The translations under genes were made by a program, and so were the position numbers. From assembly GCA_963920765.1 (NCBI GenBank), contig OY987243.1, positions 6,262,001 through 6,326,000 on the forward strand: a stretch of 64,000 nucleotides of DNA, in the 5' to 3' direction. The notes under the pieces were generated by a model, which saw nothing but the letters and a program-made list of their open reading frames with translations, searched no databases and was not told where the DNA came from. Positions 168 to 63,905 of the stretch are shown one piece after another; the first letter of the stretch is position 1, and each line of letters opens with the position of its first letter. The DNA comes from Ulota crispa (Eukaryota > Streptophyta > Bryopsida > Orthotrichales > Orthotrichaceae).

Positions 168-524
168 TTAATCCTTAAAGGACGGATGGATCACCGTGGC
201 TTGTCTTGCTTGTAGCATTTTATACTGTTTTGCATATGAGCATCATTAGCATTGCTTCAAAAAGTTGGAAAAGTCAATAGTGCATGGTGTCCTCATGAAA
301 ATCGCAAGAAGGGCAGCTTGGGAGCTAACACCATGTATCACAATTTGGGTTACAAAACAAAATAAATGTATCTCAAGAGGTAATTTTTTGCCTTCCATGA
401 TGCACTACACATTTATGATCACTTTTGAAAAAAAATCAGAACAAAATTAGTCTTTTTCTGGGATACATAATCTTGTTTTGAAGGCAAAGGACGTTTTTTG
501 TCCGTGGCAACGTTTAGGGGTTAA
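168..524. mobile_element. Family A (TTAA) element, 357 bp
   Basis: The left end reads TTAATCCTTAAAGGACGG and the right end, on the other strand, TTAACCCCTAAACGTTGCC. Both begin with TTAA followed by a C/T-rich CCCYTAAA-type terminus. The interior carries no recognisable protein. The left end has drifted from the family form, so this is probably an old copy. Confidence 0.6.
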
Positions 525-827
525 AAGAAATGAATTAAGAATAAGACAATAGAAAGATATGGAAGTTTTAACTACATCCTAAGGTGTCCACAATTCCAAA
601 TAAAACTATTGTTAAAATATTCAAGTTTTGATGAAATCTAATCACTACTCCAAAACAACAAGGCCTTCAATTCTTGGTAGACTCCATTCTTGGAGTTGGA
701 GCCATTACACATTTATTTTTCAAATATCAAATTGTATTTCAAATTTTTTTGCTTGGACTTTTAACACACATGCCTTAGTTTGATTTCAAAAATTCAACCA
801 ATGAAAGGCTAGGATTGGGAAACCTGG
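525..827. other. Unassigned AT-rich sequence
   Basis: I see no gene, RNA or complete element between the family A copy and the family C copy that starts at 828. Confidence 0.5.
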
Positions 828-1084
828 AACACCATGTTAGGTAAATTGGGAAAAATAGTACATTTTGGGACTTTTGAAGGATTAAGGTGATCACCTTAAT
901 ATGAGCTCCAACATTTTTTTGGGTACAAATGCCCTCACTTCAGAGGAGGAATTTGAGAGGGAAAAAATCTTAGTGGCTTAGACTGAACTTGATACCTTTG
1001 AATATGGTTTAAGGTAACTTTTTAGGTTTAAGGTGAAATACAAAATGGAACCCTTGTTTTTCCCAGTTTACCTAATATGGTGTT
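828..1084. mobile_element. Family C element, 257 bp
   Basis: The termini are AACACCATGTTAGGTAAATT on the left and its imperfect reverse complement on the right. The flanks are CTGG (824-827) and TTGG (1085-1088), a 4-bp target duplication with one change. The interior has a short aaggtgatcacctt palindrome and the phrase aatcttagtggctt shared with the other copies at 14512, 16998 and 32207. Confidence 0.85.
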
Positions 1085-1805
1085 TTGGTCTTCAAAACAA
1101 ATGTGGCTCTTAGTATAATATATTTGCCCTTATGGATATAGTTCAGAGTGTGTCCTTCAAGTTCCAATGCAACTCTAGATCACAAAAATATTGTGTTGCA
1201 AAAAACAAAAACAAATATTATAAAATGTTTGGGTATTCAATACCAAAATTTGTTTAACCCAGCTCTAATATTAAGGTTTTGCTATATCTCATTCTTAAAT
1301 CAAAATCCCACTTTCTTGTTGTCAACATTTCCAACAAACGCTACTATAGTCAAACCTCTCTTGTTGCATGGGAAGGGTGGGGAGTTTTTTTTAGTAGTAT
1401 GCACACAAAGAGGTTCAAGCACATTTTCTATTAGTGACATTGTACTTTGGTGGTCCCACTCTGACAAAAATAATTCCATCCATGATTATTGAACCACACT
1501 TTGTGCACATAGAGAGTATGCAATTTAAGAATTCCAAGTAGTTATGCAAATAGGGAATATGCAATAAGAAAGGCTTGACTGTATATAAGCACTTCTAAGT
1601 AAACCAAAGCTTGGAACACAATATGAAGTAATAAACCCCAATCTTCAAACTTTGAACCATTTTGAGTTTGAAAACTTGATGGATTCCAAAGAGATTTAGA
1701 AGCAAAGCTACCATTCTTATACTGCAATAGTTCAAAATCTATAGAAATTTCAATTTTTTTTCAAACAAGTAAGAAAATAATTTGAGTACACATCAAGTGA
1801 TAAAA
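1085..1805. other. Unassigned sequence
   Basis: There are frames of up to 114 codons on the plus strand (1148-1492), but no family resemblance, no splice context and AT-rich codon use. I do not call a gene here. Confidence 0.5.
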
Positions 1806-2052
1806 CTGTGCCCTAAAGGATGTTGCTGTTTTATATACGGACTCCTGTGTTGTATACGGATGGGGTATTTGGATAGCACGTGAATCCCTTTGGAGCTGTA
1901 AATTTCAAGCCAAGTCAGAAACATAATATTGGTCAACTAGGAATTTTTGGGGAATTTTTGACATTTAATGTTAAGTTTTTTTTTCAAGTACTAAATGGTT
2001 CTCCTACAAATACATACAACACTTTTGGTAGGCAACATCCTTCAGGGGTTAA
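1806..2052. mobile_element. Family A (TTAA) element, about 247 bp
   Basis: The left end CCCTAAAGGATGTTGC (1811 on) matches the right end, whose reverse complement reads TTAACCCCTGAAGGATGTTG. TTAA is intact at 2049-2052, but the left TTAA has mutated (ctgt). No coding capacity. Confidence 0.6.
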
Positions 2053-2425
2053 TCCTCTCCAAAAGCTTCAAGTCTAGTGTACAAAATTGCACCTTTTGCA
2101 GAATTTCAGGGAAACTGGGTTGTATGAATTGTGGGATTCTACAAGACCAAAAGCTATAAAAAAATATTTTACAAAATCATTAGTGGATGAAGTCCACTTT
2201 GCTTCTCCCAGTTGCAATTATGGAGCCTATCACTATTGAAGTCCCATCTGACAAGAGGGAGCATGGCCGACATCAAGTCATTCAAGCGTACTCTCTTGAA
2301 TGAAAGTTCTTAATTTATATTTATTCTTCTTCTAGAAAAGACTGCTGTCTGATTAAATGACTGTACTGTACACCAGTGTTCGGAGATTCTTTTAGCTTCA
2401 CGGGTTGAAATCCGGATTTTCACTA

Positions 2426-2735
2426 AGGTAGGAGGCTCATAAATGGAACATCTAAGGGCTGAAACTGAATTTTATGTAGGTGAAACTCCTTGAAATGATT
2501 TTCAGTAAATTTTCCTTGAAAGACAAGAAGAATCCGCATCTAATTCAAATTGTTTCATATTTTTTGGAACTTTGCGGAATTAGTTATGAACATTTGAAGT
2601 GGAAAGATCATATGGCTCTAAAATGGAGCACCTTCTCAAATGTACATGAGCTGTACATTGTTGAAGGTTTATGAAAAACAAGATGTACAGAAAGAGTACA
2701 TTTGAGGCGGTGCTCCGAATTTGAGCCTCCTACCT
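2426..2735. mobile_element. Family B element, 310 bp, TA target
   Basis: Inverted termini AGGTAGGAGGCTCA are flanked by TA on both sides (2424-2425 and 2736-2737). The interior is clearly homologous to the copy at 61117-61441 (shared phrases such as aagacaagaagaat and catattttttgga). Non-coding. Confidence 0.8.
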
Positions 2736-3648
2736 TAGCATGCATCAGTAACTTTCTATAAAACTTTTAAATTTCTACTATGATTTATTGTATTTAGACT
2801 CTTTTTTTTTTTTTTTTTCTTTTTTCTTTCTTTTTTTGGAGAAATGGACCAATTTTTAATCCAATGTTTTCAAATTGCAACTTAGTTTTTTGTAATTTCA
2901 ACTGCTTGACAATGCCCTAACCATTGGCTCTCCCTAAACAGTGATTAGGGCTATTATTTTCATTTTTGGTTTTTATCTTTACCTGCCAAAGACGTGGGTT
3001 GTAGGTTGAATTTTTTGCAACCTACCTTGAATTTTAGTAGTAGGCAAGTTGCAATACTTTCTCGTTTAGTTTAGTATTTTGTTTACGAGTTTTTTCTTGC
3101 CTAAGAACTTTTAGCTACATGTGTGGCAGCTTATTAGGTTATAAATGACAACTTTTAAGTTTAGTCATATATTCTTCAGTTATGTGAATTGGTGATGTCT
3201 AACATCAATCTTCAATAGTTGTTTTATTTTGTTAGTTATAATGCTAAACTTGAACATTTGTAAAGTGTACACTAACAATTTTGTCAAGAAGCCACTAAAA
3301 GACTATTTAGTACATTTGTTGTATAAGCGCCAAATCTTGCCATGACACAATAACTACAAGCAGTTGTTTGAGGGAGGATAGGTGAATAAATAGCACATTT
3401 ACGTTTTGCATTATAGTTAGGTGGGGGGAGCAAATATGATTGATGGTTACTCAAGCTGCCTTAATCTAAGGTCCCATCAGCAACAGGGCAGCATGTCAAA
3501 TTGCACCCCATCTGAAAAGCAATTTTACATCTTGAAACTTTGACTACTTTTTAAATTTTCCTCTTTATTTTTACAATACAATTTTAGCGCAATCAAATTT
3601 GAGATAGATTTTTTGCTAATTTTAGCCAGATTTATTACCGCTAGGTGG
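2736..3648. other. Unassigned AT-rich sequence with a poly-T tract
   Basis: It contains a T-rich run at about 2800-2835 and otherwise unremarkable AT-rich sequence up to the minisatellite. I see no gene. Confidence 0.5.
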
Positions 3649-3904
3649 GATGGAGGAGGGAGGAGATGAAGGGAGGAGGGAGGGGATGAAGGGAGGAGGG
3701 AGGGGATGAAGGGAGGAGGGAGGGGATGAAGGGAGGAGGGAGGGGATGAAGGGAGGAGGGAGGGGATGAAGGGAGGAGGGAGGGGATGAAGGGAGGAGGG
3801 AGGGGATGAAGGGAGGAGGGAGGGGATGAAGGGAGGAGGGAGGGGATGAAGGGAGGAGGGAGGGGATGAAGGGAGGAGGGAGGGGATGAAGGGAGGAGGG
3901 AGGG
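3649..3904. repeat. G-rich 20-bp minisatellite, about 13 units
   Basis: The unit gggaggagggaggggatgaa is repeated almost without change; only the first unit (3649-3668) and the last differ. One strand is all purine apart from one T per unit, with runs of three and four G in every unit, so G-quadruplex or triplex folding is possible (inference). The array lies about 1 kb before the NEK start codon. The long minus-strand frame across it (PSSPPSSLHP repeats) is only the translation of the repeat. Confidence 0.95.
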
Positions 3905-4960
3905 TATGGAAAGCTGAGAATGCCAGGGATGAAGCTGGGATGAAGCTGGGATGAAGCGACTGCGAGGAAGGAAACAGGACGGAGCTCGGCGCGGGTGCAG
4001 GACTGCAGGCGAGCTCAGCAGGAATGATGCAGCACCACCACCACACGGGGAATCTAATGTTCACTCAGGTCACCGGGCCTGCGCTTGCCGCTCGGCGCCC
4101 GTTGCTGCTGGCTGCTGCTACGCTTATGCTGCCGCGGCATTGCTGCAGCTCAGACACATTCTGGAAGGCAGGCACAAGGCAAGGCAGGGGCGTCGGAGCA
4201 GGAGCAAATTGCCGTCCTTGTCCACCACAGCTCCACAGCTCCACAGCCTCCACTGCTCCTCTTTCTATTTCTGTCCATTTCCGCACCTTTTGCTCTTACT
4301 TCAAATCCTTACTGTCCTTCCTGTCGTCACGCTTCCGTCTCTCCCGTACTCTGACCATCTCTACAGTACCACTTTCTCCTTCTCGTGCCGTCTCCGATGT
4401 TTGTTCAACTTAGATCCACCACTGCTCTCTCCCTCACTCAGAGTTCCTCAGTCTCTTCACTCTCTTCGTCTCCATGTATTTCCTTTTCCTTCCTCCTTTC
4501 TAATGCTCGGAGTCTCTTCTTTTAGTGGCCGGCCTACTTGTACAACCTGCATTGTGAAAACTGTGAAGTCGTGTTGCCTCTTTTTCTTTGCTCTTCTCCA
4601 ATCATCTGTTCTTAACCTAGCTTCTGCAAATTTATCTCCTTAGTTGCGTACTCTTCTTCCCTAAAGATTCGCCGCCGGATCATTTGTACGCTGCAGCTCT
4701 CGGCGGTAGTTCGTCAGCGATGGCTTGTGGCATTCTCCGTCGCAATCCTGTATTGCTTGGAAGCAGGAAGAGAGAAATATCGCTGAGCCGGGTGTGCGTT
4801 AGGGTACTCGATCACAAAATCAGGAAGCATATGTGATCGGCTGTGCAGGGACAGACTACGGTTGCGTGTGGAGGTTTACTAATCAATTTAAACTTTGTTT
4901 TAGTCAGTGGTGAAGTGGTAGCAGGAGGTCTTCCGTTTCTTTTCTAGCCGGATAGATACT
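3905..4960 (+). promoter_or_regulatory. Presumed promoter and 5' leader of the NEK gene
   Basis: Base composition changes abruptly from AT-rich repeats to GC-rich and then CT-rich sequence. From about 4240 to 4660 the plus strand is dominated by pyrimidine tracts (tcc, ctt and tct runs), as in many plant 5' leaders. Small frames with upstream ATGs occur (for example the 3951-4643 frame), but I see no protein family in them. I cannot place the transcription start or a TATA box with confidence, and a leader intron is possible. Confidence 0.45.
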
Positions 4961-11315: not shown

Positions 11316-12416
11316 AGCTCACATTCCCTCCGCTTTCGTTATCCATCATCATGGGGTTGCAGTTTCATTTTTGAGTGTTGTAAGAGTCTTGCTCAGGATG
11401 GACTCTCGTTGAATTCTGCCCTTCTCTGTCGAGGACATGTGAGTTTCTGGTTTTGAGGCTGTTTGGGTTCAAGTCCGACGGTTTCAGGAGTGGCGATCAT
11501 AGTGCTGGGCTCGTTGTTGATGAGGAGGCTTCATTTTGTGAACCACGCATACCCGTTCTTTGTTTTGTTGTACAAAATAAACACTCGTTACTGTCAATGT
11601 TTTGCGAATGACCTGTGTTTTTTGCGAGGTGTGGCTTCTAGTCTTTTGGTTGATTTTCATATAGTAACACTGAGTTTGTATATGCTCTTCGTTGGTGACC
11701 CTATGCGCTGTCCATGTTTATTTAACCCAAAATGGGTTTCTGCTATTTGGGCGGCCTGCAGGGACTTCAATTTTTGATTTGTTCTTGGCTTATTTTGTTG
11801 TAGCTCCTCAACTTCCAGTATTAGGCTTCATTCTGTACGAGTCTGAATAGTAATGTAAAAAATGAACGTTTATTTTTGAAGCAAATGCAAGTGCCGTAGG
11901 CAGATCAGAAAATTTACTTTCTGAAAATTCGCCTTTTCACTGATTTATCTAGATTTGGTTTTCTCTGCTTTCTAGGTATATTGAGGGCTTAGAATCATTC
12001 CATTTTGTGGTGTTACAAACACGTGAATATCGGTGAATTGTCCGCAACTGTCTTCAACCCAGATTTTGCTAGCTTTGGCATATGCTAAGGGGTCAAAACT
12101 TGAAAACAAATTGCTTACCCGCAGGCCCTCCAAAGCAGGAGGGAAGGGATTTGATTTGGCTTGTCGTAATGGATCACAGTCCATGAATTTAGTAGTAAGT
12201 CCCCAAGTCTTCAGGGATACATCCCTATTTTCTTGTGTATAGAGACACAAACGTTATCTCTAAATTCTATTTTGGGCATGAAAAAGAAATTCACTTACAT
12301 CTTCTAACAGTTTTCACTATTGTAACCGGATGTCTTCGGTGATTTGGTGATTAGCTTATGTAATACAAGTGTGCTTTTCTCCTTTGTGACAGCTAAAGTT
12401 TTGATGCTAACAATTA
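11316..12416 (+). other. NEK 3' region and unassigned sequence
   Basis: It begins with the presumed 3' untranslated region of the NEK gene. An AATAAA hexamer sits at 11576-11581, preceded by a TTTGTTTTGTTGTA stretch that would suit a plant far-upstream element, so cleavage shortly after about 11600 is plausible; a second T-rich region lies near 11790-11860. From about 11900 to 12416 I see only short unsupported frames. Confidence 0.35.
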
Positions 12417-13254
12417 CTCCCTCTGTCCCTCTCAAAACGTCCAAATCAGACACATTTCTTGTAAGGTAGGCGCACCCATAAGCGTCGAAATAAGGGTTTT
12501 GGAGTAGGTGAAACAATTAACTAACTTTTAACTAACTTTGAAAAAAATATTGTAAGTTAGGAAATGGAAACCAAAAATATTGGCATCAATTTCAAGGTTC
12601 CAACTGCAAGCATTTGTTCACAAAGATTTTTCAAAGTCCAAAATCATTAAAATTGTAGGAATCATGTGTAAGAGATGCTAAAAACAAAGCTTGTTGGTTC
12701 TTAAATAGTGAGATGGGTACTCAAAACTGTCATGCCAGTCACCCACAACCATCACTTTGTCACCCATAATCTTTTAAGTACCCATAATCATTTGCTTTTC
12801 TACTTATGACTCCTTGACTTTGTCAGTGAGGCCCAAGGGGACGTGACGCCCATGGGTGCTCCTACCTTACCATTAAAAAAAACTCCCTGATTTCAAACAC
12901 TAAGAAAGTGTTTGCTATGTTCAATGATCTCATGGGGGCAAGTTAAGTGATTAGAGAGCATTCCTCTCTTAGCAAGCTTGGCCTTGCTCATTTGAAGTAC
13001 CATTGTTGCCACTAATCTTTAAATCATCAATAATGAGGAAATCATCAAAAATGAGGAGCTACTACAAGCATAGATATGGTACTTTTTTGAATGAAATTTG
13101 GGTGTCCAAATGACAACATCAAAGTTGGATACTTTGCATACATTTAGTAGATGGTATGTTGATTCTAGAATACATGTGTCACTAGCACAAAGACTAAAAA
13201 CATAGTTAATCCTTTGCAAGGAAACTTTTTGGACGTTTTTAGAGGGAGAGAGGG
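12417..13254. mobile_element. Stowaway-like element (family E), interrupted
   Basis: The terminus CTCCCTCTGTCCCTCT and its inverted partner ending in agagagggag are flanked by TA at 12415-12416 and 13255-13256, the arrangement of Stowaway/Tc1-mariner MITEs. The copy in RF1 intron 3 (58634-59043) is the same family in the opposite orientation. A family B element occupies 12464-12867; without it this copy would be about 430 bp, close to its relative. Confidence 0.85.
12464..12867. mobile_element. Family B element (long form), nested in a Stowaway-like element
   Basis: The termini AGGTAGGCGCACCCATAAGC and, reversed, AGGTAGGAGCACCCATGGGC are flanked by TA (12462-12463, 12868-12869). The uninterrupted host element at 58634-59043 (reverse strand) has ttcttgTAccact at this point, so the insertion duplicated exactly TA. 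The interior is homologous to 26356-26772. Confidence 0.9.
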
Positions 13255-14769: not shown

Positions 14770-14791
14770 ATAAGTGTTAGGGAGTAGGGAT

Positions 14792-18563: not shown

Positions 18564-18864
18564 CATCAAATAGTACGTTGCCTTAACAATTAGGTTGCTC
18601 TACCTTAAAAATTTATCTTATGACTCATCATTCAGTTATTTGGAGGTGCATGTGTCTCTCCATGTATTAGGATCTTACATGCTTTACATCTTGGATGATG
18701 CTACTCCATTATTGCATTGCATTGCATTGTTGTTGTTGCCATGTCCTTATTGTTGTTAAAAGATGTCAATTATTAATGAAATTTATAAATAATATCAGTA
18801 AGTTTGTATATAGTGTAAAATGTCAAGGAATTAGTGTGGAGTAAACTAAATGCACTATTTAGTG
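18564..18864. mobile_element. Family D element, 301 bp
   Basis: The left terminus CATCAAATAGTACGTTGCC and the right terminus ending TGCACTATTTAGTG are inverted partners, flanked by TA at 18562-18563 and 18865-18866. The ends resemble CACTA-transposon ends, but the target is TA. Confidence 0.7.
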
Positions 18865-18866
18865 TA

Positions 18867-19231: not shown

Positions 19232-19464
19232 TTAACCCCTAAAAGGCCCTTGGGCTATAGAGATACGGTACCAAATACGATTGCAATCAATATTCAAAAG
19301 TTTGAATTAGTTAGAAATTAAGTGTTACAACCATACATATTGAAGGGTTATACGATGGTGAGTGCATAACTTTTTTTTGAACAGCCCTCAAAACAGCTCA
19401 AATACGGCTGTATATATGGCCGTACATACAACCAGAGATGGCCAATGGGCCGTTCAGGGGTTAA
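19232..19464. mobile_element. Family A (TTAA) element, 233 bp
   Basis: The left end TTAACCCCTAAAAGGCCC and the right end (reverse complement TTAACCCCTGAACGGCCC) match well. The interior (gagatacggtaccaaatacg, aattaagtgttacaa) is homologous throughout to 31362-31593. There is no coding capacity. Confidence 0.9.
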
Positions 19465-31193: not shown

Positions 31194-31821
31194 TTAACCC
31201 CTGAAGTCTTTTTTAGCTTTCTTTTGGGCTTTTTTTCATTCTTCTTTGGCACCTACGGTAGAAATTGGAGCTATTCGGCCCCCCAAAGGAATTGATGTGT
31301 TAAATCTTTGGCAAATTCTTTTTCTAAATACCCTTATTTTACTTTCATCTGGAGCTGCTGTGACTGCCCTGAAGGGCCCTTGGGCTCTAGAGATACGGTA
31401 CCAAATACGGTCGCAATCAATATTTAGAAGTTTGAATTAGTTGGAAATTAAGTGTTACAATCATACATATTGAAGGGTTGTACGATGGTGGGTGCATAAT
31501 TTTTTTTGGAAAGTCCTCAGAGTGGCTCAAATACAATTGTATATATGGCCATACATACGGCTAGAAATGGTCGATGGGCCGTTCAAGGGTTAAGGAATGC
31601 TCTACGTATTACATAGTATATACGTTGCCATATAATTGACATTTGCTACCAATAAAAAGCTTTAGTTTGGGATCTTGACTAGCTCACTAGAACCGCATTG
31701 ATCTATATTCTAACTTCTTGGTTGATCTCAAATGTAGTAAAGGTGTGGATGCATTCCATATACAAGAAAATACCAAATACTATATTGGTCGCAAAGGGCT
31801 CTTTGGTCTTTTAAGGGTTAA
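31194..31821. mobile_element. Family A (TTAA) element, 628 bp, with a nested copy
   Basis: The left end TTAACCCCTGAAGTC and the right end (reversed TTAACCCTTAAAAGACC) enclose a second family A copy at 31362-31593. Its right TTAA (31818-31821) also starts the next element. Confidence 0.55.
31362..31593. mobile_element. Family A (TTAA) element, 232 bp, nested
   Basis: Homologous throughout to 19232-19464, including ccttgggctctagagatacg and gatgggccgttcaa. The right TTAA is intact (31590-31593); the left TTAA has decayed. Confidence 0.8.
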
Positions 31822-32067
31822 CCCTTGAGCGCCCAGGCCATATTCACCAAAATGCAGACCTAGTCACACTCAATCCAACTAATTTGTCATGACAAATGAG
31901 ATCCATAAAATCCAGCCGTATTGATTGGTAGGAGACATAGGCCCAAAAGTACAGGGAAAAAAGACACATGATTTAACTTTATTGATGAAAAGATTATAAC
32001 AGTCAAACATGGAACTTTTTCAATAATGAGAGGCAATATTTGGGGCTGTGGGGTGCTCAGGGGTTGA
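31818..32067. mobile_element. Family A (TTAA) element, 250 bp
   Basis: The left end TTAACCCTTGAGCGCCC and the right end (reversed TCAACCCCTGAGCACCCC) are good inverted partners; the right TTAA is mutated to TTGA on the plus strand. Confidence 0.75.
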
Positions 32068-32121: not shown

Positions 32122-32629
32122 TTAACCCTTGAGCACCCAGAGTTGTTTTAGGGTTTAGGAGAAAATGGGGATTTAATGGCCACCACAGCTTGGAAAATTT
32201 ACATCCAACACCATATTAGCTTATTAGGTAAATTGGGAAAAATAAGGGTCCCATTTTGTACTCCATCTTAAACCCAAAAAATTACTTTAAACTAGATTAA
32301 AAGGTTCCAAATTCAGTCTGAGCCACTAACAAAATTTCCCTTCCAAATTCCTCCTTTCAAGTGAGGGCATGTGTACCAAAAAGAACATTGGAGCTTGGAT
32401 TAAGGTGATCACCTTAATCCTTTAGAAGTCTCAAAATGTAATGTTTTTTCCAATTTACCTAATATGGTGTTATCCAGAAAAAGTGATTGTAGGATCTGAA
32501 AAAGGACTGCTTTCTTTGCTGATGGGGGACCAGCCACAACTTTTTTCACAATACGGATCAAGGGAGAAAGTGAGATCAACTTGGGATCCCAAATGACAGG
32601 ATCCCGTCGCTGGGGCGCTTAGGGGTTAA
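32122..32629. mobile_element. Family A (TTAA) element, 508 bp, with a nested family C copy
   Basis: The left end TTAACCCTTGAGCACCC and the right end (reversed TTAACCCCTAAGCGCCCC) enclose the family C element at 32207-32471. Without it the copy would be about 240 bp, the usual short family A size. Confidence 0.8.
32207..32471. mobile_element. Family C element, 265 bp, nested
   Basis: The termini AACACCATATTAG and CTAATATGGTGTT are flanked by ATCC at 32203-32206 and 32472-32475, a perfect 4-bp duplication. An attag repeat near the left end explains the extra few bases. It has inserted into the family A element at 32122-32629. Confidence 0.9.
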
Positions 32630-35466: not shown

Positions 35467-36394
35467 TTAACCCCTAAAGGACCATTGTCCCTTCGGGGGA
35501 CAAATGGGATTTTGGGCAGGTACCTACGGCCTCAATTTTTGTCCTAATTTTTTGAAACTTTTTTGAAGATAGAAAAACACATTAATTTTTGAGGAGTCTA
35601 ATTTTTATTCCAATTGATTCTAGGGAGCAAAAGTTATGCCCAAATATGCACAAATTTGGGGACTAGGGGCAGCAAAAAAAATTCTTATAAAAATTTGAAA
35701 AAAAAATTTAATTTTTTTTTCTCATAGATTATATCTTTATCTACTTTTGAAGCTTTGATTCATTCCATTTGGACTAGTTATGAGAAAGTTATGGACAATC
35801 TTGTTTTTTTGGCAACTCAAGCATCTTCTTGAAAAAATAACTTATAAATTTCATTTTTGAATGCAGGTTTAACATTTTTTCAAAAACAATTGTTGGAGAG
35901 GGTGAAGTTTGCTTTCTAGAACAATCTCACCATTGGGATTATTGCGTTTCAATTCCATTGCAGGGTTAATAGCAATTTAAGTTTTTCTTCAATCTCATAC
36001 CTTCTTCTACCTAATGTTTTTTTAAAGAATGAAAATTAAGTATTCTTTTTAAAAAAAATTCCCAAAATTCCCAACTCAACTTCCCACCATGCAAAAATAG
36101 AATTCCAAACTTTGTGGTGCAAAAATTTTAAGTTAAAAATGTTCAAAGTTAAAAAATCTAATTAAGCAAGGGGCAAAAAAAGTTGATTTTTACCTTTTAA
36201 ATGCAAATATCTTCCAATCTGTGCAATCAAAGTTCTTGAGTTTTGTATGACACATTTTGATAATAGTCTAGCACAAGATCCTATGATTAGATATGCAAAA
36301 TGCCTGATTTTCAAACTTTTTTACTCTTTGCCATAGAGGTGGCAGTTTTGAGTGTCTTTTGACAAAATAAAGGCCATGGTCCTTTAGGAGTTAA
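35467..36394. mobile_element. Family A (TTAA) element, 928 bp, nested
   Basis: The left end TTAACCCCTAAAGGACCATT and the right end (reversed TTAACTCCTAAAGGACCATG) are the best-matched termini of the family, about 20 bp. The interior is AT-rich without a long frame. Confidence 0.9.
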
Positions 36395-36459: not shown

Positions 36460-36708
36460 TTAACCCTAAGCGCTTGAGAGACATTATAATGTTTCTCAAA
36501 AAGTTGGGTCAACTCAATTTTGACCAACATAATCTCATTGCACGTTCAGTGAAATTACTTCCAATCTAGTATAGCATGATGGAGACGCCTTTCACTAACA
36601 ATTCATATGGTCCGATCTTGTGAATTGTATTTTACAATCCACAAAAGGTACTTTGATTGCACACAAGTCAAACTTTTTTCGTTTCAACTCTGGGCGCTCA
36701 GGGGTTAA
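36460..36708. mobile_element. Family A (TTAA) element, 249 bp, nested
   Basis: The left end TTAACCCTAAGCGCTTGAGA and the right end (reversed TTAACCCCTGAGCGCCCAGA). The flanks are aatcg before and gacaacctaaatg after, matching the empty site aattgTTAAggcaacctaaa at about 34847. Confidence 0.92.
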
Positions 36709-36974
36709 GACAACCTAAATGCACTATTTGGTGTAGGGTTTGCGGAACATGTGAGCACACAAGCCACACAGGCTCCCAGTTCCCAATGCGTCACTTCTGG
36801 TGTCCGTTGTGGTTGACTTCCGAAACCCCACGAAGCCTGTACAACTTCTGGTGCACTCTCTCTCACACACAGACACAGACTCATGCCTGGGTCACACATG
36901 CCAACAAATTAAGAAGTAAAGTGTATTTTTGGAGTATCGGGGGACAACAACTTTGCTTAAAGTTTCATGCATTG

Positions 36975-37323: not shown

Positions 37324-37403
37324 TTAACCCTAAGCTCCCAATCGACCATTTTTTGGTCGTTGCCTGTTTTTTTCGGGCTGCCCAAGACCAAAAAAAACTT
37401 TTT

Positions 37404-37436
<33 letters not shown>

Positions 37437-37880
37437 GTAATAGATAATCAAGTCTACTTTCCAACTTAACTTCAATTGTGTCAATTCAAGTTAAACTCCT
37501 CCAAGGAGAATTTTTCAAAGACAAACACTTCAATATTTGCTAGTGTTGTATAATTTACTATTTTGGGAAACGAATGATGTTCCCTCCTTTCAAAAGATAG
37601 CATCTTTGAAGTTTAGGATAGAATGTCTATTTTTAACTAATTGTGCCAAAATTTGAAATCTATGAGTAAATTTTGTAATTTTGGTGAATATTAAATGATA
37701 AATGCTTCTAAACTCATTAAATAAGAGTAAAAAACCTTTTTTGAATATTTGACCATATGTATAATTGCTAAACATCATGAATCTTATTTTCTCTTTTGAA
37801 ACAAACTTCATTGAAGTTACAAGAGTATTTTTTTAATGCATTTATGTTTTGCCGTTACCCCTTGGGCGTTTAGGGGTTAA
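37324..37880. mobile_element. Family A (TTAA) element, 557 bp
   Basis: The left end TTAACCCTAAGCTCCC and the right end (reversed TTAACCCCTAAACGCCC). The interior includes a poly-T run at about 37407-37436. Confidence 0.7.
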
Positions 37881-38600: not shown

Positions 38601-39465
38601 TTAACCCCTAAAACTCTTTTGTGTTTACATGGTCAAATGGCTCAAACTGGACCTCTTTCAATAAAATAATTAGTAAATCAAAATTTTGAATTGTTTTCAA
38701 TAAATTAATTGCAAGATCCATTTTGTTACTTGCTTGTGTACATCCTCTCAAAAGTTCAAACTTTGCAAGGGCATATTTCATAAGATTATAACACTCAAAG
38801 TCAGGGCATAACTTTTTTTGAAGTTTCTCTAAGGTGTCAATTTTTTTTGGTCATTCAAAATGATATCTACCACTTTATGAATTTCTTGTGCAATTTAACT
38901 TTATTGTAGAGCATGAAGTTGGTTATATGCCTCAAAAGTTTTATGATCATCCAATGCTTAAAACATAATGGAAAAAAATTGGAAGTGGGAATTCCTTTGT
39001 TCGAATTGTCATTACACTAAAACAACTTTACAGAAAAGATTCTTATAGAAATAAATCTCAATTACAAAATCCATATGGTGTAAAGCTAAAAAATCATGTG
39101 GAGTACTTGTCAAAATAATTTTTTTCTAAAAATGAAAGTAAAATATAAATTATTATATAGTCAAAGAGAATTGATTGCAAATTTTGCTAAGCCATTTTTG
39201 AACAATATTTGGGCAACACCTATCTTCAATCCCACTTTGTTTCTAATTTTTTTGATAATGCTCGTGTTGACATCCAAATCACATATGATACCATATCTTA
39301 CTAAAAAATGATTCAATTCCATTTTTTTTATAGAGGTATGCAATCTCTTCAATATGAACACATACACCCTTATTTTCACAATTTTATCTTTTATATTTAC
39401 TTGAGAAATGCTTGCCCAAATATCCCAAAAGCCAAAAGTGGGCTCCTTAGTCATTTAGAAGTTAA
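38601..39465. mobile_element. Family A (TTAA) element, 865 bp, diverged ends
   Basis: The left end TTAACCCCTAAAACTC and the right end (reversed TTAACTTCTAAATGACT) match only in the first dozen bases. Interior AT-rich, no supported frame. Confidence 0.55.
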
Positions 39466-41723: not shown

Positions 41724-42655
41724 TTAACTTTTAAATGCCTAAGGGTTTTTTATTCATTTTTAGAAGGTAGTTTCAAAGTTCTTGATTAGTCCTTGTAAGA
41801 TCATTATTAAACATCAAAACAAAATTGTAACCGTTGAATTTTGAATTTCAAGATTTCTAGATGGCACTATCCAAAACAAATCCAAAATGGCCTTGCATAT
41901 TTTAAAATATTTGTGATTGAATGATGGTGAATATGGAATTTTTTGCTTTTTTTGGAGCTGCCTGAATTTTCTAATGCAAATTGGCAATTTTTGAATACAA
42001 ACTGGGAAACAATCACTTAGAATGTTTTAGTGTTTATTGTTGTTACTTCAAAACCAATGGCCCTTCTTCCAAATTCATGACCTTAATTTCACAAATGAGC
42101 CTACAACACAAATGTCAAAATGCAACATCCAAATACAAAGAAATTTTCCGCTTCAATGATTGACCAAAAATCATTATGAATGAAAGATTTTCAATGGTGA
42201 ATATATTTTAAATTTAACAACAAAGACATTCTAAGTGAAATTAGTCCAAAAGCACTTTTAGATTTTGTTAGATGTCAAAATTTCAGAAAAAAGGCCCTTA
42301 TTGCCTAAATGAGTGCCTAAGGGAAATCTTCACCTTTTGCTCAATTTGATGCTTGTCTTTTCAATATGGCAACTTTTCATAGCTCTATGACACTATTTGC
42401 GACACTATTCATGATACTATTCACAACACTATTTATGATAGAAAATTTATGCTTGTAGTTAACCTTTTACCAAAAACAAATGGAATGAGATGTGGAGGAA
42501 GTTGAATTTGAACACTGAAGCTAACTTCATTGCGCAATTTTTCCAAAAAAAAAAAAAACCTCTAAACAATAAAATCTATGCCCTCAATAGGGTTTTAAAG
42601 TTCCTTGAATTTTTTTGGACACCACAATGTGGTGCCCTAGGCATTTAGGGGTTAA
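41724..42655. mobile_element. Family A (TTAA) element, 932 bp
   Basis: The left end TTAACTTTTAAATGCCTAAG and the right end (reversed TTAACCCCTAAATGCCTAGG) pair well over about 20 bp. The right TTAA (42652-42655) borders directly on the truncated foldback element next door. Confidence 0.85.
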
Positions 42656-52776: not shown

Positions 52777-53000
52777 TATTTAGTTTTTAAATTTTTTGAG
52801 AAAAAGTAAAAGAAAATTCCACTAGGCTTGCCCATTCTTTTCATTGAATTTTTTTAATAAAAAGCCATCTATATTATCCAAAACTAACTAATTAACAATA
52901 TTAGTGATGTAAAGAAAGAACTTGCTTTGTACACATGAGAGGATAAAGAGAATTTTTTATGTAAATAAATATTTTCATCAATCATTGTTCTATATAAGGA

Positions 53001-53407
53001 GATTGATATGTCTACCACACCCTTTCAGCTATTCTACCACACTTCCAAGGTAAATTTTAGATTTCTACCATCAAATAGTTGAATTTTGAGAATTTGAAAT
53101 TCATATTTGGACTCAAGGACCTTCATTTTGTTTAGAACCATAAAAAAAGGTTTTAAATGAACAAAACTCAATGAAAAAGCTTAGCTTGAGGGAAAAGTAT
53201 TACTTTTATTTTTTTTATAAAAAAAGATAAGCTTTTTCATTGGGTGTTGTTCAATTAAAACTTTTTTTTATGGTTATAGACAAAGTAAAGGTCTCAAAGT
53301 CCAAATTTCAATTCCAAATCCTTAAATTCAGCTTTTTGATGGTAGAAATCTAAAATTTACCCACAGGGTGGTAGAATAGCTGAAAGGGTGTGGTAGACAT
53401 ATCAATC
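53001..53407. mobile_element. Foldback element, arms about 190 bp
   Basis: The ends gattgatatgtctaccacac and its reverse complement are at 53001 and 53407, and pairing continues inward (tttcagctattctacca, atggtagaaatctaaaattt). The loop is T-rich. No clear target duplication. Confidence 0.85.
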
Positions 53408-54333
53408 CCTCTATATAAATGGTCCAAAACTCTAAATTACCAAGTTTATCTTTGATTTTCTATTTTAGGCCAAACCAATTGACACAATTGCAAAAGTTGC
53501 AAAAGTGTACATTCCAACAAAGAATGGCTTACCGATATTATGATATTTTTTTAAATCAAGAAAATTTGTTCACGCTTCAAAGTCTTATGCACGGCAAGTA
53601 TAAATTCAAAGTCAATTATAATTGCAATGCAAAAGTTGCCCCCGAACGACCAATTCCCAATACAACCAAAGGTCAAAAAATAATCCAAGTGATTCTTGTA
53701 ATGGCACTTTTGAACAAGAATACCTCCATTTCTTATCACTAATAAAAACAAACAATCATTCTCCTTATTATCCTAAAGTCTTATCCTAGATTTATACACA
53801 ATGGCCATTGGAACCGAGGTACCTTTTTTCATTTAATTTTGACAATTCAAAAGTCTAACCTGACTACAATATTGAGGAAGATATATAAATCCTTGACAAT
53901 AGGTAGCATATGCAAAATATGGACAAAAAATCATTTCTTTGTAAAAACTAGTTTACATCACATCTCAAGATTGAGAGGTCATGGAGTAGTTAATCCAATA
54001 ACAAAGGAAAAGCATATTGTCAGATATTCTCTCAAAAATACTTGTATTATTCTTCAAGCAAAAAACTGTACAAGAAATAGATTGTAACTTGGGCCAATAA
54101 ACCTTTCACATAACAAAGTATCTAGATTTTTCTAAATGAAACTTATATTTGGTCCATTGGCTTTTACTAAGAAGAAAAAGATAGCCATCATAAAAAAATA
54201 CTTCGTGTGACATGCATGCAAACAAAAAGCCTTTGCAAAACTTTGCTCAAATCTCTTTGGATGAAAAGCAAGAGACAAGCCTTGTAGACATGATACATGG
54301 TTCAAGTTAAATCATCATCCAAAATCTGCAGTA
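53408..54333. other. Unassigned sequence
   Basis: The 107-codon frame at 53419-53742 begins just beside the foldback element and lacks family features. I see no gene. Confidence 0.45.
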
Positions 54334-54636
54334 CACTAAATATTACGTTTGGGTTGCCCCACACTATTTCTCAAACATTTATACTATATAAATATTTATT
54401 AATATTACAGTAATTTTCATGGATAATTATTGTAATAAACAATACTCAAAGGGCTTAACAACAACAAAACTCTAGAAAAACAAATTAGCAATGTTAAGGC
54501 CATAGACCGCGTGAAATCCTAGTATCTAAAGAGTTGCATGCGCCTCCAAGTGGCCAAGCAATGAGTCATGAGGTAACTCTCCAAGGTAAGACAACCTAAT
54601 TGTTTAGGCAATCTAAGTTAAATGCAATATTTAGTG
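54334..54636. mobile_element. Family D element, 303 bp
   Basis: The left end CACTAAATATTACGTTTGGG and the right end ending GCAATATTTAGTG are inverted partners; TA precedes the left end, and the right flank is not TA. The interior serves as an uninterrupted reference for the split copy at 35268-36731. Confidence 0.75.
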
Positions 54637-55217: not shown

Positions 55218-58200
55218 TTACGACGCAGCTTTGAGAGACGCCATAGCCGCCATTTCTTGCTTCATGGTCAAAGTATCAATGAAACCATCCAGCCCGTCTC
55301 CTTGCATGATCTGGTCGATGGAGTGCTGCGTTATGTTTATGCGGTGATCGGTGACTCTTCCTTGAGGAAAATTGTATGTTCGTATCCGCTCTGATCGGTC
55401 TCCACTGCCAATCTGCACAGGAATTCAAATACTTCAGACACATTTTTCTTAACAAGACTTGGAGCCAATACAAGATACAGTGGTGCTTGGTTAACATCAA
55501 CCTTTGTAATAGCAACAATTGGATAAGATCACAGCCCCACTCCCCATTTGCCCAAAGCACGTCTTATGAGCTTGGTTAAGTGCTTGCACATGGTCAACTT
55601 TTTCTTTTCATCAATGCCCATTTTGACCAAAAATATGGGTAAGAAAGCACCTCCAAAGTTGCAACAACCAGAACTAGAGAAATTGATGCAAATGGAGTGT
55701 TTGTTTTTTATCAATGCTTGGATAAGGTCAACACTTTTCTCTAGCCCAAAGTGTTGACTGTATCCAAGCACCACATAAGCAGAGGATCCTAAACTTAAAC
55801 CCTAAACCCTAAACCCAAACCATACCAGAGGAAAAAATATTCATATGGTCTAGGAACTAATTCAGTGCTGACTGGACAAGTAGACATTGGTTTAACTCGA
55901 ATATTTGGAACTTGGCCCCACAAAAAGCAATTCAATTCAAGGTTTTCATGATTTCATTAACCCCAGTTATTAGCTGCAACTTATCTTTTCGTAAATTTGA
56001 TTGGAATTCAGTTAGCAAGTGATGTAAGCATGACTTGGCTATGGCTGCTGACCTGGCAATGGAACTGGTGTTGCTTATTGTGATCTCTGGTAGTCTACAA
56101 TTTTCCCGTTTGAATTGCTTAAAAAGATGTGATGAGACTTGCGTACAAAAGCCAAATTCTTCAAGATCAAAAGTGATCTCTCCACAAGCGCTATGGATTT
56201 TCCAAAAATCTTACTCCTATGAAAGTTAAAATGGGAAATAATATATTCTACTTTACATATTCAGAGTATGTTGCAGGGGTCGGTGAGATCAGGAGCTGTG
56301 CTGAAATTTGCGACTCCAGGAAATTAATAAAAGCCAACTGGGGTAGTAATACCTGCTCAAGGCGAAGACTCGACCGTGCCATCGCCTGCTGCATCCTCTC
56401 TCTCTCGAATAGCTTCGCACGAAGCAGCTTGAGTGCTCTGGCTCTATTCTGCACGTTAAAACACAATGATAGGTTATGTAAATTATTTCAATGCTCATCA
56501 GCCAAATTAATTAACATGAAATTAGCTAAAACCATGAAAAAACCGTAATTTCTTTTGGTACTTGTGAGAGTTTCTTACCATGTGTTGAGAACGTTCGTCT
56601 TGGATGGCAATCACAATGCCAGTGGGTAAGTGAGTAACACGAACAGCACTGCTGGTAGTGTTAGCATGTTGACCACCGGCACCGCCTGCTCGATAGGTGT
56701 CTATTCTCAGGTCTTCATTCCTCATTTGAACGTCAACCTGCATATTTGCTAACCTCAACATTATAAATACAAAAAGGATAGATTTACGTTCTCATCTCAA
56801 CAATAATTGCTAGAGATTATTCCTCTTGCAGAGGAGAAAAGAATTACCACTATGAAACTCATCTTGCATGTACGTGAATAAGCATGAGCAGCTGCGTTGA
56901 ATGACAGATTTAAGAGGTAGACAAAGCCTAGTATATTGGATATAAGCATCTCAAGAACCTCAAAACTCATGTATTGTATTAAGGGAAAATTTCATGGATA
57001 CCCCTGAAGTTTGCAATATTTACATAGATACCCCTGCTTTCTCAGAAATTATACAAATACCCTTGGACCAAAATTTTCAGGCGTTATTTTTGTTGTGCAT
57101 GCCACTTCCCTTCTTCCTTTGTGCACACGGTTCTTCTTTTTTGTTTCATTACATTCCCTTCTAAAACATTAGTCATGAAGGAAGTACGAGCACAAAGCCT
57201 AAAAATTATGGTCCAAGGGTATTTGTGCAATTTCTGAAAAACCAGGTGCATCTATACAAATATTGCAAACTTCAGGAGTATCCATAAAATTTTCCCTTGT
57301 ATTAAATGCTGGAAATTATCACCTCGTCCGCTTGTGGAAGAACAGCCACAGACGCTGCGCTTGTGTGAACCCGTCCACTTTTTTCAGTCACTGGAACCCT
57401 CTGAGAGGCAACAAATATTGTTTCGATGAGCCGAAAACATCCGGAAACTGGTCAAAAGATTTGAATTGTGTAACACAAAGAAGAGCCGTGGAAGGAGACT
57501 CTAGAAGCCACCCAATAATTAGAGAAAACAAATACACCAGCACATGAAAGAAAGACATTGATGGCCTCATATGCAACACGTTGCAATTCAATCAGTAGAA
57601 CGCAAAGAAGAATAGTTGATCAGTTGAACCCCAGTGTACCTGAACCCTGTGCACCCCACTCTCAAACTTGAGTTTCCCATAAACACCATCTCCAGTAATG
57701 GAAGCACTTGCTTCCTGCATCATAACACGCTCGCTTCAGTACGCTTCCTGGCACCTGGTTAAGAAATTCACCCTCTGCAAATGAAAAGCTTGCTACGAAG
57801 ATTCAAGAAAAAAACGAACCTTGTATCCTTTGCTTTCTGTTTGAGTTATGCTCAAAACCTCAAAACTCCAGAGCTTTTTCTGGGCAAATCTCTCGTACCT
57901 GTAGAATAAAAATCATTGAATTTTCGTGACAACAAACATTGAAAGGACACATCTATCCATTGGCTACAGCCTAAACAGAGTTGCATAGTAATGAAGTAAA
58001 CAAGGACTCCAGACGGTGATTACTAAAGAAGTGATAAAGAATCCAAGACAAGTAAGATGTATGAATGCGAGGGAAGAAGGAAAGGTAAAATGGACAAACA
58101 TTCTGAAAACGTCCAGCGCAAACAATGAGGCTTCCTCTCCGCCGGTGCCTGGAGAAAAAGGTGAACACAATACCGAGGCATGAAAAAAATATGCCACTTT

Positions 58201-60472
58201 TTAAATTGTCACTACCTTATGCATCACAAAAAATTTATAGTGGAAAAGAAAATGGATAAAAAGCAAGCACAGAATCAGGTTACATACCAGCTCTGACCTC
58301 AAGAATGCAGCCACGACTGTCAGCTACATCTTTGGGAAGCATGAGTGATAACATTCGTTGCAAGTCCTCGAATTCTAGCCTCGACACAAATCGAAGTTCT
58401 TCTGCTGCTGCTTGTTTCATCTCCTCATCTTCTGCGGCTTCATCTATCAGAGTTTTCAAACCTTCCATCTCCTGCCACGACTCAGCAAAGGTCATGACCG
58501 TTCCAAGTATCCGTAATTAAAACACAAATACCACCAAGTAATCGGCATGAAATGACATGACCAGATTTATGGCTCAAATGACCAGTTAAAAGCATTTTTA
58601 AATCAGTATACGATTTGAAGGCACAAACTGATACTCCCTCTGTCCCTCTAAAAACGTCCAAAAAGCGTCCTTGCAAAGGATTACCTGTATTTTTAGTCTT
58701 TGAGCTAGTGACACATGCATTCTAGAATCAGAATAACATCTACCAATTGTATGCATAATCTCCAGCTTTGATGTCGCCATTTTGGCACCCAAATTCCACG
58801 CAAAAAGTACCATATTGTGCATGCTGCCAGCTCCTCATTCTTGATGATTTAAAGATTAGTAGCAACAATGGTACCTCATATGGGCAAGGCCAAGCTTGCT
58901 ACGAGAGGAATGCTCTCTAATTGCTTAACTTGCCCCCATGAGATCATTGAACATGGCAAACTCTTTCTCAGCGTTTGAAGGGGAGCTTTTTAGTGGTACA
59001 AGAAATGTGTTTGATCTGAAGCTTTTTAGAGGGACAGAGGGAGAAAGATCTATGACATAAAATTAGTGAATTTGACTTCGAGAGATTTGTAACAAGCCGC
59101 TTAAAGACCATGCAAATGGTAACGACTCTTGAAATCATGCAAGTGAGGTCTAGACTGAAGAATACCTTGCGCTTGGATTTCAAGGAAGCTATGCAGGTCA
59201 TGAAATCCTCCAGCTTGCTCAGCTCTTTACTCAATCGTACAATCTCATCGGGAGGCGCAGCAGGCTGTCTTCATACCACTCAAACATTGGTCAGTGACAA
59301 AGAAATAGCAAATGCTTTTTTGACCAATCCAAACATTCAAGTTCAAAGCCCTGGTAAACCCTAATTTTCATGCCCAGCAATTTTCTGAGGGTCAACAAGA
59401 GGTAGCCTACCTCAGAGAGAGCCTGATTCAAACTGATATGGCGATGCTCTATCGTCAGCATCCCTCGCTCTACTATGGTCAACATGTCTTGTGAAAAAGG
59501 GAGCTGTCCTTCTGCATCACAACAACTTTTCATACTCTCAGCAACTTATATCAAGCTCTCTAAGACACATTTCTTCCTCTTTTCACAGATCGACAGCCCT
59601 CAAAATGCTTCCATTCGTGTCTGCTAAGAATATTCTACATTCTAAACCTAAATTTTCTTTCTCTAAAGTAACCAGAATTAGATTTCCAAACAAAACCTTC
59701 ACGTGCTTCACCTCCAATCCCTTGAACCTTAAACCCTAAACCCTAACTCTAACCCTAATCCTGTGTCACATATTCTACGACCATTCAAAGACAATTCTTT
59801 CTGTTTCAAGTTTCACAGTATATCGGACCCCAGCACGAGAATGCTTCCACTAGTGTCTGTTTAGAAAATTCTACATTCTAAACCTAAATTTTCCTTTCTC
59901 TAAAGTACCCAGAATTAGATTTCCAAACAAAAACCTTCAAGTGCTTCACCTCCAAGTCCCTTGAACATTAAACTCTAAACCCTAACCCTAATCCTGTGTC
60001 ACAAATTTATCCAAAGACGATTCTTTCTGTTTCAAGTTTCACAGATTATCGAAAACTTCACAGCACGAGAATGCTTCCACTAGTGTCTGTTTAGAATATA
60101 TTCTACACCTGAATTAGCTTTCCGTAGAATAGCCAGAAAATTCGAGTTCCTAGCAAAATCTCGACATTTCTTCAGCGTCAAGAGCTTTAAACCCTAAACC
60201 TTGAGATCCATGCACTATCAAATTACGAGAAAGAATTTCTAGAGTATTATTTGGAGAATACTGCAAAAAATGACTTCCATGAACTCCGATTGTGCATCGA
60301 AATGCGGCTTACCGGCGGTGGAGAAACATCTGGCCCCTGTCGTGAGAAACCAGCTCTTGTTTGAAACTCCGCTACGAATAATTTGAGCCGTCTGGAGGGG
60401 AGTTCTGCTGGCAGCAGAATTTGTGCAGAGAATGCGAAACAGAGAGAGCGCGGGGGATTTGAAGCGCCTCAT
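55218..60472 (-). CDS. Mitochondrial peptide chain release factor 1 (class I, RF1)
   Basis: Exons (minus strand): 60472-60313, 59511-59411, 59264-59166, 58471-58288, 58148-58100, 57898-57820, 57714-57640, 57400-57323, 56737-56579, 56448-56353, 55412-55218; all GT-AG, one frame of 424 codons. The N-terminus ([14 protein letters not shown], then GARCFSTA) has the Arg/Ser-rich look of a mitochondrial targeting peptide. Then follow the coiled N-terminal domain, [11 protein letters not shown] in domain 2, the stop-codon-reading tripeptide PVT (252-254, the RF1 type that reads UAA and UAG) and the catalytic GGQ (296-298) within [13 protein letters not shown]; the C-terminus has [16 protein letters not shown]. 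It releases finished chains from mitochondrial ribosomes. The chosen start is the first true ATG; the open frame upstream begins only with TTG. Exon 2 could start 3 bases later. A plastid location is possible but less likely. Confidence 0.95.
55788..55822. repeat. Short interstitial telomere-like repeat in RF1 intron 10
   Basis: Four AAACCCT-type units (aaacttaaaccctaaaccct, then aaacccaaacc), the complement of TTTAGGG. Too short to be an old chromosome end. Confidence 0.8.
56981..57298. mobile_element. Foldback MITE in RF1 intron 8, 318 bp
   Basis: The ends aagggaaaatttcatggata and its inverted partner (tccataaaattttccctt) are flanked by gtatt at 56976-56980 and 57299-57303, a 5-bp target duplication. 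Pairing extends about 100 bp inward. It ends 24 bp from the exon 8 donor. A truncated copy lies at 42656. Confidence 0.88.
58634..59043. mobile_element. Stowaway-like element (family E) in RF1 intron 3
   Basis: The terminus CTCCCTCTGTCCCTCTAAAA and its inverted partner ending gagggacagagggag, with TA on the left (58632-58633). It is uninterrupted and supplies the empty site for the family B insertion at 12464. Confidence 0.85.
59565..60200. repeat. Tandem repeat of about 235 bp in RF1 intron 1, with telomere-like blocks
   Basis: Two full copies and one partial copy, marked by atgcttccattcgtgtctg (59604), atgcttccactagtgtctg (59841) and the same at about 60070. Each copy ends with a telomere-type run: aaaccctaaaccctaa (59729), aaaccctaaccctaa (about 59976) and aaaccctaaacc (about 60188). 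Confidence 0.85.
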
Positions 60473-61441: not shown

Positions 61442-61442
61442 T

Positions 61443-61880
61443 ATATTTTGAAGGGCCCTTAAGTTTTTTGATCTCCACCAATGCTCTTCAAAAAGGTGGT
61501 CTTGCATTTCAACATGTCTCATAAATAATCATTTGACCACTTATCAATAGGGTTTTTTTTATCTAGTGACAACTTCCCAATACGTCCTTCCCTACAAATA
61601 TGCTTCAATGTGGAGGGGACAACGTAGCACTTTGTTGCCAGTAAAAAAAAATTGTTTATCAAGGAAGTAAAGGATAAAGTTCACTCAAATTAGGAGGTCT
61701 TGGCTTGATTTTAGGTTTCCATCTATATTTTTGAAGGGTTCTTGAGTTCTTTGATCTCCACCAATGCTCTTCAGAAAGGTGGTCTTGCATATCAACATGT
61801 TCCATAAATAATCATTTGACCACTTATCAAGGAAAGGAAAGGATAAAGTTCACTCAAATTATGATGAATAGTGATGAATA
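61443..61880. repeat. Direct repeat of about 150 bp, 280 bp apart
   Basis: The stretch gatctccaccaatgctcttc, with the following ggtggtcttgcat and ataatcatttgaccacttat, occurs at about 61472 and 61758. The phrase aaaggataaagttcactc also occurs twice (61669, 61842). Confidence 0.85.
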
Positions 61881-62040
61881 GTGTTTTGAAGAGCCCTTGT
61901 TAGACATGTTGGGACTTGGGACAAAGTGTCTTGAGAGAGTTTTGAAAGGGCCCTTAGAACTTTTCATCCACTTTGGGCGTGCATTAGACTCTAGGAGGAC
62001 ATAGATGGAGATACTCTAAGTGATCACTTTCATGAAAGTA

Positions 62041-63083
62041 CACTAATAATGGTATTTAGTGTTAGCAACACTAAACAAAAACCCCAACACTAAGTGCCAA
62101 CAATCCTCTTGATGTTACCAACACTAAAAGTCTAAGTATACACTATTTGTCAACTATTGCAATTTATGGGAATATCATTTTTTTACAAGTTTACATTTCG
62201 TGTTAGAAATTGTTTCATTACAAAAAATAACATATATTAAATTTATGAATCAATATTTAGACACCTAACACAAATTTTCATTTAAGTAGCCAAAATCCTA
62301 GTTATGGAAGGGGCCTTGACCAAAAACAACTTAAATTCTTTGTAAATCAAGGTGCTTGAGAAATAAACAATTGATGAAGAAGCAACGAGCATCTTTTCAT
62401 ACTAACTGCTTGAGGAGGGTGAAGGCCCCAAGGAAGTTGGAGGACTATATTACTAGAAGAAACCTGTGTTTTTTATAATGGATTTTTTTGGACATCCACT
62501 TGAATCATGTTACAAAAGATATTAAAACCAACATCTTGATGTCATGTTTGATGTCATTTATAACATAAGAACAAGTAGAAGTCCAAAAATATATATTATA
62601 GAAAAAATGGATTTCTTCTAGTGTATTACCTCCAAAATTTGATTGAATGGAAGTGCAACATCTTTCAAAATTGGAAAATACACACCAAAATTGAAAAAAT
62701 CATGAGAAAAATCACTTGTTTGACATTGTAGCTCTCTAGCAATGTGAGCAATGCAAGGCATGCAAATGGAGCAAGGTGGAACAATAGATGTGCATGAGAT
62801 AAAACAAAGGTCAACCTTCCAAAGAAATGCAATGAAGGCAAAGCCACAAGAAAAGCGACACAATTGAACCAAGCTAGAAGGAAAGAGAAGTGCAACATGG
62901 GTTGCAAGCGGAGAGGTTGAGTAGGCTACAAGGGATTTAGGACAAGAAGAGAAGGAGGCAACAAAGAGTGTTGTGCACTAAAAGAAAGCAACTCTGAATG
63001 CAAACTAGTTGAGATTTAGAGTTAGTGAAATGAAAGTGCAAGTAACACTATTGGTAACATAACACTAAATACCATAATTAGTG
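62041..63083. mobile_element. Inverted-terminal element with CACTA-type ends, 1043 bp
   Basis: The left end CACTAATAATGGTATTTAGT and the right end (reversed CACTAATTATGGTATTTAGT) pair over 20 bp and more, flanked by TA on both sides. The interior has small hydrophobic minus-strand frames (62618-62907) but no transposase that I recognise. Confidence 0.8.
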
Positions 63084-63265
63084 TAGTAAGGAAACAAGTA
63101 AAGGTCAAAAAAATTTAATTACTATTAAGGCAAATTCTCATAATATTTTGGATTTTGTTTTGAAACTAATTTCTTTGGTTTTAGGAGATTTGGGTGAAAC
63201 ATATATGAAATTGTCCAACCCCTCTCAATGAAACATTGTGTGTGCCAAAAGTTGGATGAAAGGTA

Positions 63266-63905
63266 TTAACCCCTAAATGCATAAGGCACCCAATTTGGGT
63301 GTTTGCAAAATTTTGAAGACTAATAAAATGTTATCAAATCACTATTTTTGGTATTTTCTTTTGAATACAAGTTTGTTTTTAAGTCTATCTTCACCATCAA
63401 AAATCTGATTTGAAAAATGAATATTGATGATTTTTCTATTCAAGATTTTGTACAAGGGTGTCCACTGCAATCTTGAATTTTCTAGTGTTGGAAGATCTTG
63501 AAAATGAGCCTCAAATACACTAGAGCTTGGAGAAAAATCCGCATTAGAAAAATACAAGTGTAGATTTTGAAAGCTATAAAGTGACTAAAGTTAAACATGT
63601 CATGACCTTAAACCTCATATTTTTTTGATGACTAACTTTTTAGATTTGACATGTAAAATGAGGATTAGAAAACTTAAAGTCACTTTTGCAATTTTAACAC
63701 CCTCATGTTCAAACGTTGTAATCTTTCAAACTATAAGTGATATTGTTGTATTTTCTTTTTCCATGTAATCTCTAACATGTCAAGTTTAAATTTGTACGGT
63801 TACAATTTAAAAAAACTTGATGAGATTTATGAAAAAATTGGTTGATTGTTCACTTTCCTGAAAATGCCAAGAAGTTCAGAAAGGCCTTGGGCATTTAGGG
63901 GTTAA
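63266..63905. mobile_element. Family A (TTAA) element, 640 bp
   Basis: The left end TTAACCCCTAAATGCATAAG and the right end (reversed TTAACCCCTAAATGCCCAAG) match closely over 20 bp. The interior is AT-rich and non-coding. Confidence 0.9.

Follow-up and report, generated by a model that had tools for sequence, protein, structure and literature searches.

TTAA-bounded elements and their insertion sites

The stretch of 64,000 nucleotides analysed here (the window; C2:6262001-6326000 of an assembly of 274.8 Mb in 157 contigs) carries thirteen short non-coding elements, most of them flanked by the tetranucleotide TTAA, which are very probably non-autonomous, internally deleted, cut-and-paste miniature inverted-repeat transposable elements (MITEs) of the piggyBac superfamily, resident in a land-plant genome. 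Their boundaries were set from paired termini together with comparison with a 200 kb sample of contig C1 (C1:500001-700000), picked after a genome-wide listing of termini. The elements measure 232-932 bp, matching the sizes of about 230 to 930 bp given in an initial annotation of the window, and total 6,222 bp or 9.7% of it. Twelve of the thirteen starts listed in that annotation delimit an element; the start at 31194 was dropped as an orphan terminus, for which a partner was looked for and none found, and is replaced by the element at 31590-31821. The description of the elements as TTAA-bounded holds at both ends for ten of the thirteen, with one end altered in the other three (left ends at 1806, reading CTGT, and 31362, reading GACT; right end at 32067, reading TTGA). 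Three elements abut (31362-31593, 31590-31821 and 31818-32067), and the left TTAA of the middle one is weak evidence because it is common to its neighbour. The weakest boundaries, drawn solely from the ends, are those of 168-524, whose relatives in the C1 sample are only short and partial, and of 1806-2052, which has no relative in that sample. Similarity grouping gives several subfamilies, in agreement with the subgroups first proposed from subterminal sequence. The elements were also said to lack coding capacity, and only one of 32 open reading frames of at least 110 amino acids overlaps an element, by 52 bp, while a tblastn search with nine transposases found no transposase in the window.

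Exact TTAACCCYTRAR sites number 17 in the window, compared to a mean of 0.08 and a maximum of 1 in 100 dinucleotide-preserving shuffles. Genome-wide there are 53,219 (26,697 + 26,522), compared to 1,409 (695 + 714) for the reversed pattern, and pairing exact 12-bp ends lying 230-244 bp apart yielded 2,134 elements, compared to 1 for the control. The density of exact sites is 194 per Mb genome-wide and 266 per Mb in the window, and the C1 sample (73 exact sites in 200 kb) is richer in termini than the genome mean. Given two exact ends each, these sites imply about 26,000 elements, and the true number is probably higher because many ends are mutated; scaling the 9.7% of this one window by site density, we infer that TTAA elements occupy very roughly 7% of the genome.

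The sequence context of the termini was counted in a 264-kb set, in which TTAA stands directly before CCCCTAAANG at 53 of 55 sites and before CCCYTRARNG at 76 of 89, the letters T, T, A and A being conserved at 81, 83, 84 and 82 of the 89 and the next outer base being mixed. The initial annotation had proposed tabulating the flanking TTAA across the assembly, and 7,555 of 8,876 CCCCTAAAGGACCA sites (85%) do follow it. Empty sites were found as well. With 35467-36394 and 36460-36708 removed, the joined flanks can be aligned across the junction with copies of a repeat at 54375-54636 and 37017-37279, and for 36460-36708 the empty copies have a single TTAA at 18865-19033 and 34836-34880 and none at 54375 and 37017. 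In a nested case on C1, a 929-bp element (C1:563441-564369) lies inside C1:563028-564512, and this host element matches window 37324-37880; the joined flanks of the inner element align to 37324-37880 with no indel at the junction and one TTAA, and outside the host element the flanks diverge. What is duplicated on insertion is the TTAA target, and not the 3-bp TWA or 2-bp TA typical of Tourist or Stowaway elements.

The repeat that received these insertions is dispersed, with window copies at 18561-19033, 34584-34880, 35300-36850, 37017-37279 and 54375-54636, and two TTAA elements are inserted into copies of it.

piggyBac transposases and their ties to the elements

A PF13843 profile search of the assembly (528 candidates, 116 scored) gave at least 120 matches on contigs C1 to C11, with a best E of 1.3e-73, and gave none in 14 control genomes, a set that holds no other eukaryote. 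The only PDB matches of a 476-aa open frame on C4 and of a stop-free match on C2, at E <=0.001, were moth piggyBac (6x67) and piggyBat (9c0f). Three catalytic aspartates were recognised in an alignment of 21 copies (the 20 best of the 120 matches and the open transposase of element L041); they are present in 19, 14 and 18 copies respectively, and all three in 13, the other residues being asparagine and, once, glutamate. Pairwise identity among these copies ranges from 27 to 81% (median 35%), and sorting them at 60% identity by visual inspection of the matrix yields 12 groups. Stop-free matches also lie in long open frames at C1:1180709-1181995 and C8:19570986-19572215 (563 and 472 aa), which are possibly young copies or domesticated genes. 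Three pairs of matches with equal or near-equal scores lie in opposite orientation 15-110 kb apart (C2:36765124/36779670, C7:18203169/18223004 and C10:676128/785346), and are candidate inverted duplications or assembly artefacts.

One class of MITE terminus is joined directly to such transposases. The 7,179-bp element C1:661173-668351 carries TTAACCCCTAAAGGACC at each end and encloses, at C1:665584-666716, a decayed piggyBac transposase in three pieces which are 48-61% identical to another copy (E 1.4e-102). A Pfam scan of seven frames of this element found PF13843 in two of the three transposase pieces and no Pfam family in the third piece or the other four frames. Non-coding elements of the C1 sample match it over the first ~198 and the last ~460 bp, and window 35467-35565 also matches, at 84% identity; the 7,179-bp element groups with seven MITEs of the sample and one of the window. 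When the first 198 bp were used as a query, 39 of the 40 matches scored (of 5,278 candidates) started at base 1, and these matches, the query itself aside, were 89-94% identical. At further loci on C5 and C9, each read from the transposase through the 3' terminus only, related transposases lead into the same 3' segment as on C1 and end at the same GGGGTTAA, beyond which the flanks of the three loci all differ. With the same 3' terminus on transposase-bearing loci of C1, C5 and C9, the MITEs of ~930 bp appear to be piggyBac elements that have lost their interior. In a second family, represented by a 5,027-bp element at C3:13130262-13135288, ends TTAACCCCTCATCGCC and TTAACCCTTCATTGCC, which are related to those of the MITEs, surround the family's own transposase; a copy on C10 resembles this element along its whole length (90.5% identity) but has an altered 5' TTAA. 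A PF13843-type transposase was therefore found inside full-length elements both for the GGACCA subgroup, to which the 7,179-bp element is related, and for the 5,027-bp family. The initial annotation had called for a search for transposase-bearing relatives: those with these ends match the piggyBac model, and neither of the refuting outcomes it had named, copies lacking a flanking TTAA genome-wide or a relative encoding another transposase class, appeared.

Feature list, other repeats and host

Coordinates of the thirteen elements and what defines each are collected below. For the 508-bp element, a sample copy near C1:572060-572289 is without the middle ~250 bp.

TTAA elements of the window (positions are those of the window unless a contig is named)
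Feature	Position	Defining observations
TTAA element, 357 bp	168..524	TTAA at both ends; one terminus exact, the other with 1 mismatch; ends alike at 9/20 bases
Element, 247 bp, left TTAA lost	1806..2052	Ends alike at 15/20 bases; right terminus exact
233-bp MITE, GGCCC subgroup	19232..19464	TTAA and exact termini at both ends; clusters with 232-242-bp sample elements
232-bp MITE, GGCCC subgroup, left TTAA lost	31362..31593	145-nt match to the element at 19232 with 91% identity; right terminus exact
MITE, 232-240-bp group	31590..31821	Left terminus unrecognisable; 90% over 221 bp to C1:515245-515465; right terminus exact
250-bp element, GCGCCC subgroup	31818..32067	TTAA at 31818-31821 common to neighbour; right TTAA reads TTGA
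508-bp element	32122..32629	TTAA and exact termini at both ends; ~250 bp in the middle are another kind of repeat
928-bp MITE, GGACCA subgroup	35467..36394	Clusters with the 7,179-bp element and seven MITEs of the C1 sample; joined flanks align to repeat copies
249-bp element	36460..36708	Empty copies have one TTAA; 77% over its length to C1:615385-615632
557-bp element	37324..37880	Uninterrupted form of C1:563028-564512; empty-site alignment without indel at junction
865-bp element	38601..39465	Right end with 2 mismatches; groups with C1:567086-567968, 883 bp
932-bp MITE, AAATGCC subgroup	41724..42655	Left end with 2 mismatches; groups with sample AAATGCC elements
640-bp MITE, AAATGCC subgroup	63266..63905	TTAA and exact termini at both ends; groups with 647-931-bp sample elements and one of 1,758 bp

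Beside this TTAA swarm, the window contains another kind of MITE, an 846-bp stretch at 12414-13259 with inverted ends TTACTCCCTCTGTCCC / TTACTCCCTCTCTCCC, which we take to be Stowaway-like. Long, near-perfect foldbacks without TTAACCC ends lie at 33639-34505, 32989-33428, 26819-27595 and 52991-53417 and are possibly hairpin MITEs of other families, and a tandem array with a 20-bp unit occupies 3592-3971. Rfam gave zero matches over the whole window.

A Dof zinc finger was found in one of six window proteins scanned, and the same assembly has 14 matches to the dirigent domain and six to LFY-SAM (one strong and five weaker, at C4:16275377 and five further places), presumably more than expected for the latter. 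We take these Dof, LFY-SAM and dirigent domains to identify the host as a land plant. The contig sizes (ten of 16-41 Mb, besides C11) tentatively suggest a chromosome number of about 11, which would suit a moss.

Weighing the readings and their meaning

That the elements are piggyBac MITEs was first proposed from their TTAA target and CCC ends, and the reading is now supported by the duplication of TTAA and by PF13843 transposases in elements with these ends, directly so for the ~930-bp subfamily. Several observations weigh against it. Most transposase copies are broken, with only 10 of 120 PF13843 rows free of stops (counted by eye); the only long open frame whose complete sequence was read, at 476 aa, carries asparagine at the third catalytic position, and the 5' terminus of its element, L041, was searched for and not found. 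The 7,179-bp element lacks the middle part of the ~930-bp MITEs, and 326 bp of it (2686-3011) also adjoin a MITE on C3, outside any transposase element, which leaves a small probability that the 7,179-bp element is a composite. The direct tie to a transposase concerns the ~930-bp GGACCA subgroup, the AAATGCC, GGCCC and GCGCCC subgroups being putatively tied to piggyBac by similar ends and TTAA. Neither empty copy for 35467-36394 (54375, 37017) reads TTAA, so that this empty site backs the boundary only and not the TTAA letters. When TTAA was fixed and two mismatches were allowed, the window gave 36 sites compared to 34 for the reversed control and the C1 sample 149 compared to 140; as these counts hardly differ from those of the control, loose matches alone are no evidence and were not used.

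A different origin for the swarm would be that these are Tourist-like (PIF/Harbinger, TTA/TAA target) or Stowaway-like (mariner, TA target) MITEs sitting in TTAA by chance, and this we regard as very unlikely indeed, even though such elements are the usual MITEs of plants (PMC10004981) and the window has its own Stowaway-like element at 12414-13259, since all four letters of TTAA are about equally conserved while the next outer base is not, an empty site retains a single TTAA, and PF13843 is the only family matched by the tested pieces of the transposase inside the 7,179-bp element. It is likewise very unlikely that the transposase is a bystander, a piggyBac copy unrelated to two separate MITEs of another TTAA-targeting group that lie on either side of it. 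MITEs are densely packed in the region, and the missing middle of the ~930-bp MITEs would fit such an origin, but C1, C5 and C9 all show the transposase and the same 3' terminus in identical order and orientation, with differing flanks beyond, and CCC[CT]T ends also surround the transposase of the 5,027-bp family. A few near-matches in the window, at 55795-60187, are runs of CCCTAAA, but as accounts of the elements both chance and telomere-like repeats of this kind are excluded by the 17 exact sites against 0.08 expected and the 2,134 paired ends against 1, the empty sites also speaking against them.

For the piggyBac reading, we infer that a piggyBac transposase moved every subfamily, along with the chemistry of the reaction. 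The transposase would come from full-length piggyBac elements at other places in the genome and would bind the CCC[CT]T ends, excise the elements at TTAA and reinsert them at a new TTAA with duplication of the tetranucleotide. Whether a diverse stock of piggyBac transposases has been kept here as the main engine of MITEs, behind at least about 26,000 TTAA elements and, roughly scaled, several percent of the genome of 275 Mb, with the open, perhaps domesticated genes at C1:1180709-1181995 and C8:19570986-19572215 as possible survivors, is an evenly balanced question.

Genetic engineers use piggyBac as a standard tool, and the superfamily is known chiefly from animals. The elements resemble the known superfamily (moth piggyBac, PDB 6x67 and 6x68; piggyBat, PDB 9c0f) in the TTAA duplication, the PF13843 transposase and ends starting CCC, but differ in their land-plant host and in the thousands of MITEs. 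Terminal inverted repeats of the superfamily are given as 12-19 bp starting CCYT (PMC10175614); the CCCTT ends fit this, whereas many ends here are CCCCT, with one extra C, and both kinds occur on transposase-bearing elements. Tourist and Stowaway MITEs are similarly short, non-coding and abundant, but they have other target duplications and transposases (PMC10004981).

The initial annotation held that piggyBac was not known as an abundant family in land plants. Absence would be too strong a claim: a 2015 table lists PiggyBac with the superfamilies that occur in every group studied, including land plants (PMC4438587), and it also figures among the MITE superfamilies of angiosperms (PMC10004981), among plant transposons (PMC10794571) and, with 1,230 copies, in a fern annotation (PMC6890710). 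As to an abundant family, no report of a land plant with amplified piggyBac MITEs was found in a search outside which most subscription journals lay, and none of the papers it listed treats moss or bryophyte piggyBac in its title or the start of its abstract; a Niphotrichum paper was rejected as such a report, as both its matches were the word "piggybacking". piggyBac in plants is already in print, and what is unusual here is the host and the copy number. If the reading is true, the piggyBac superfamily can massively colonise a land-plant genome, plant transposases and ends would become available for comparison with animal ones, and repeat annotation in plants may be misfiling TTAA elements.

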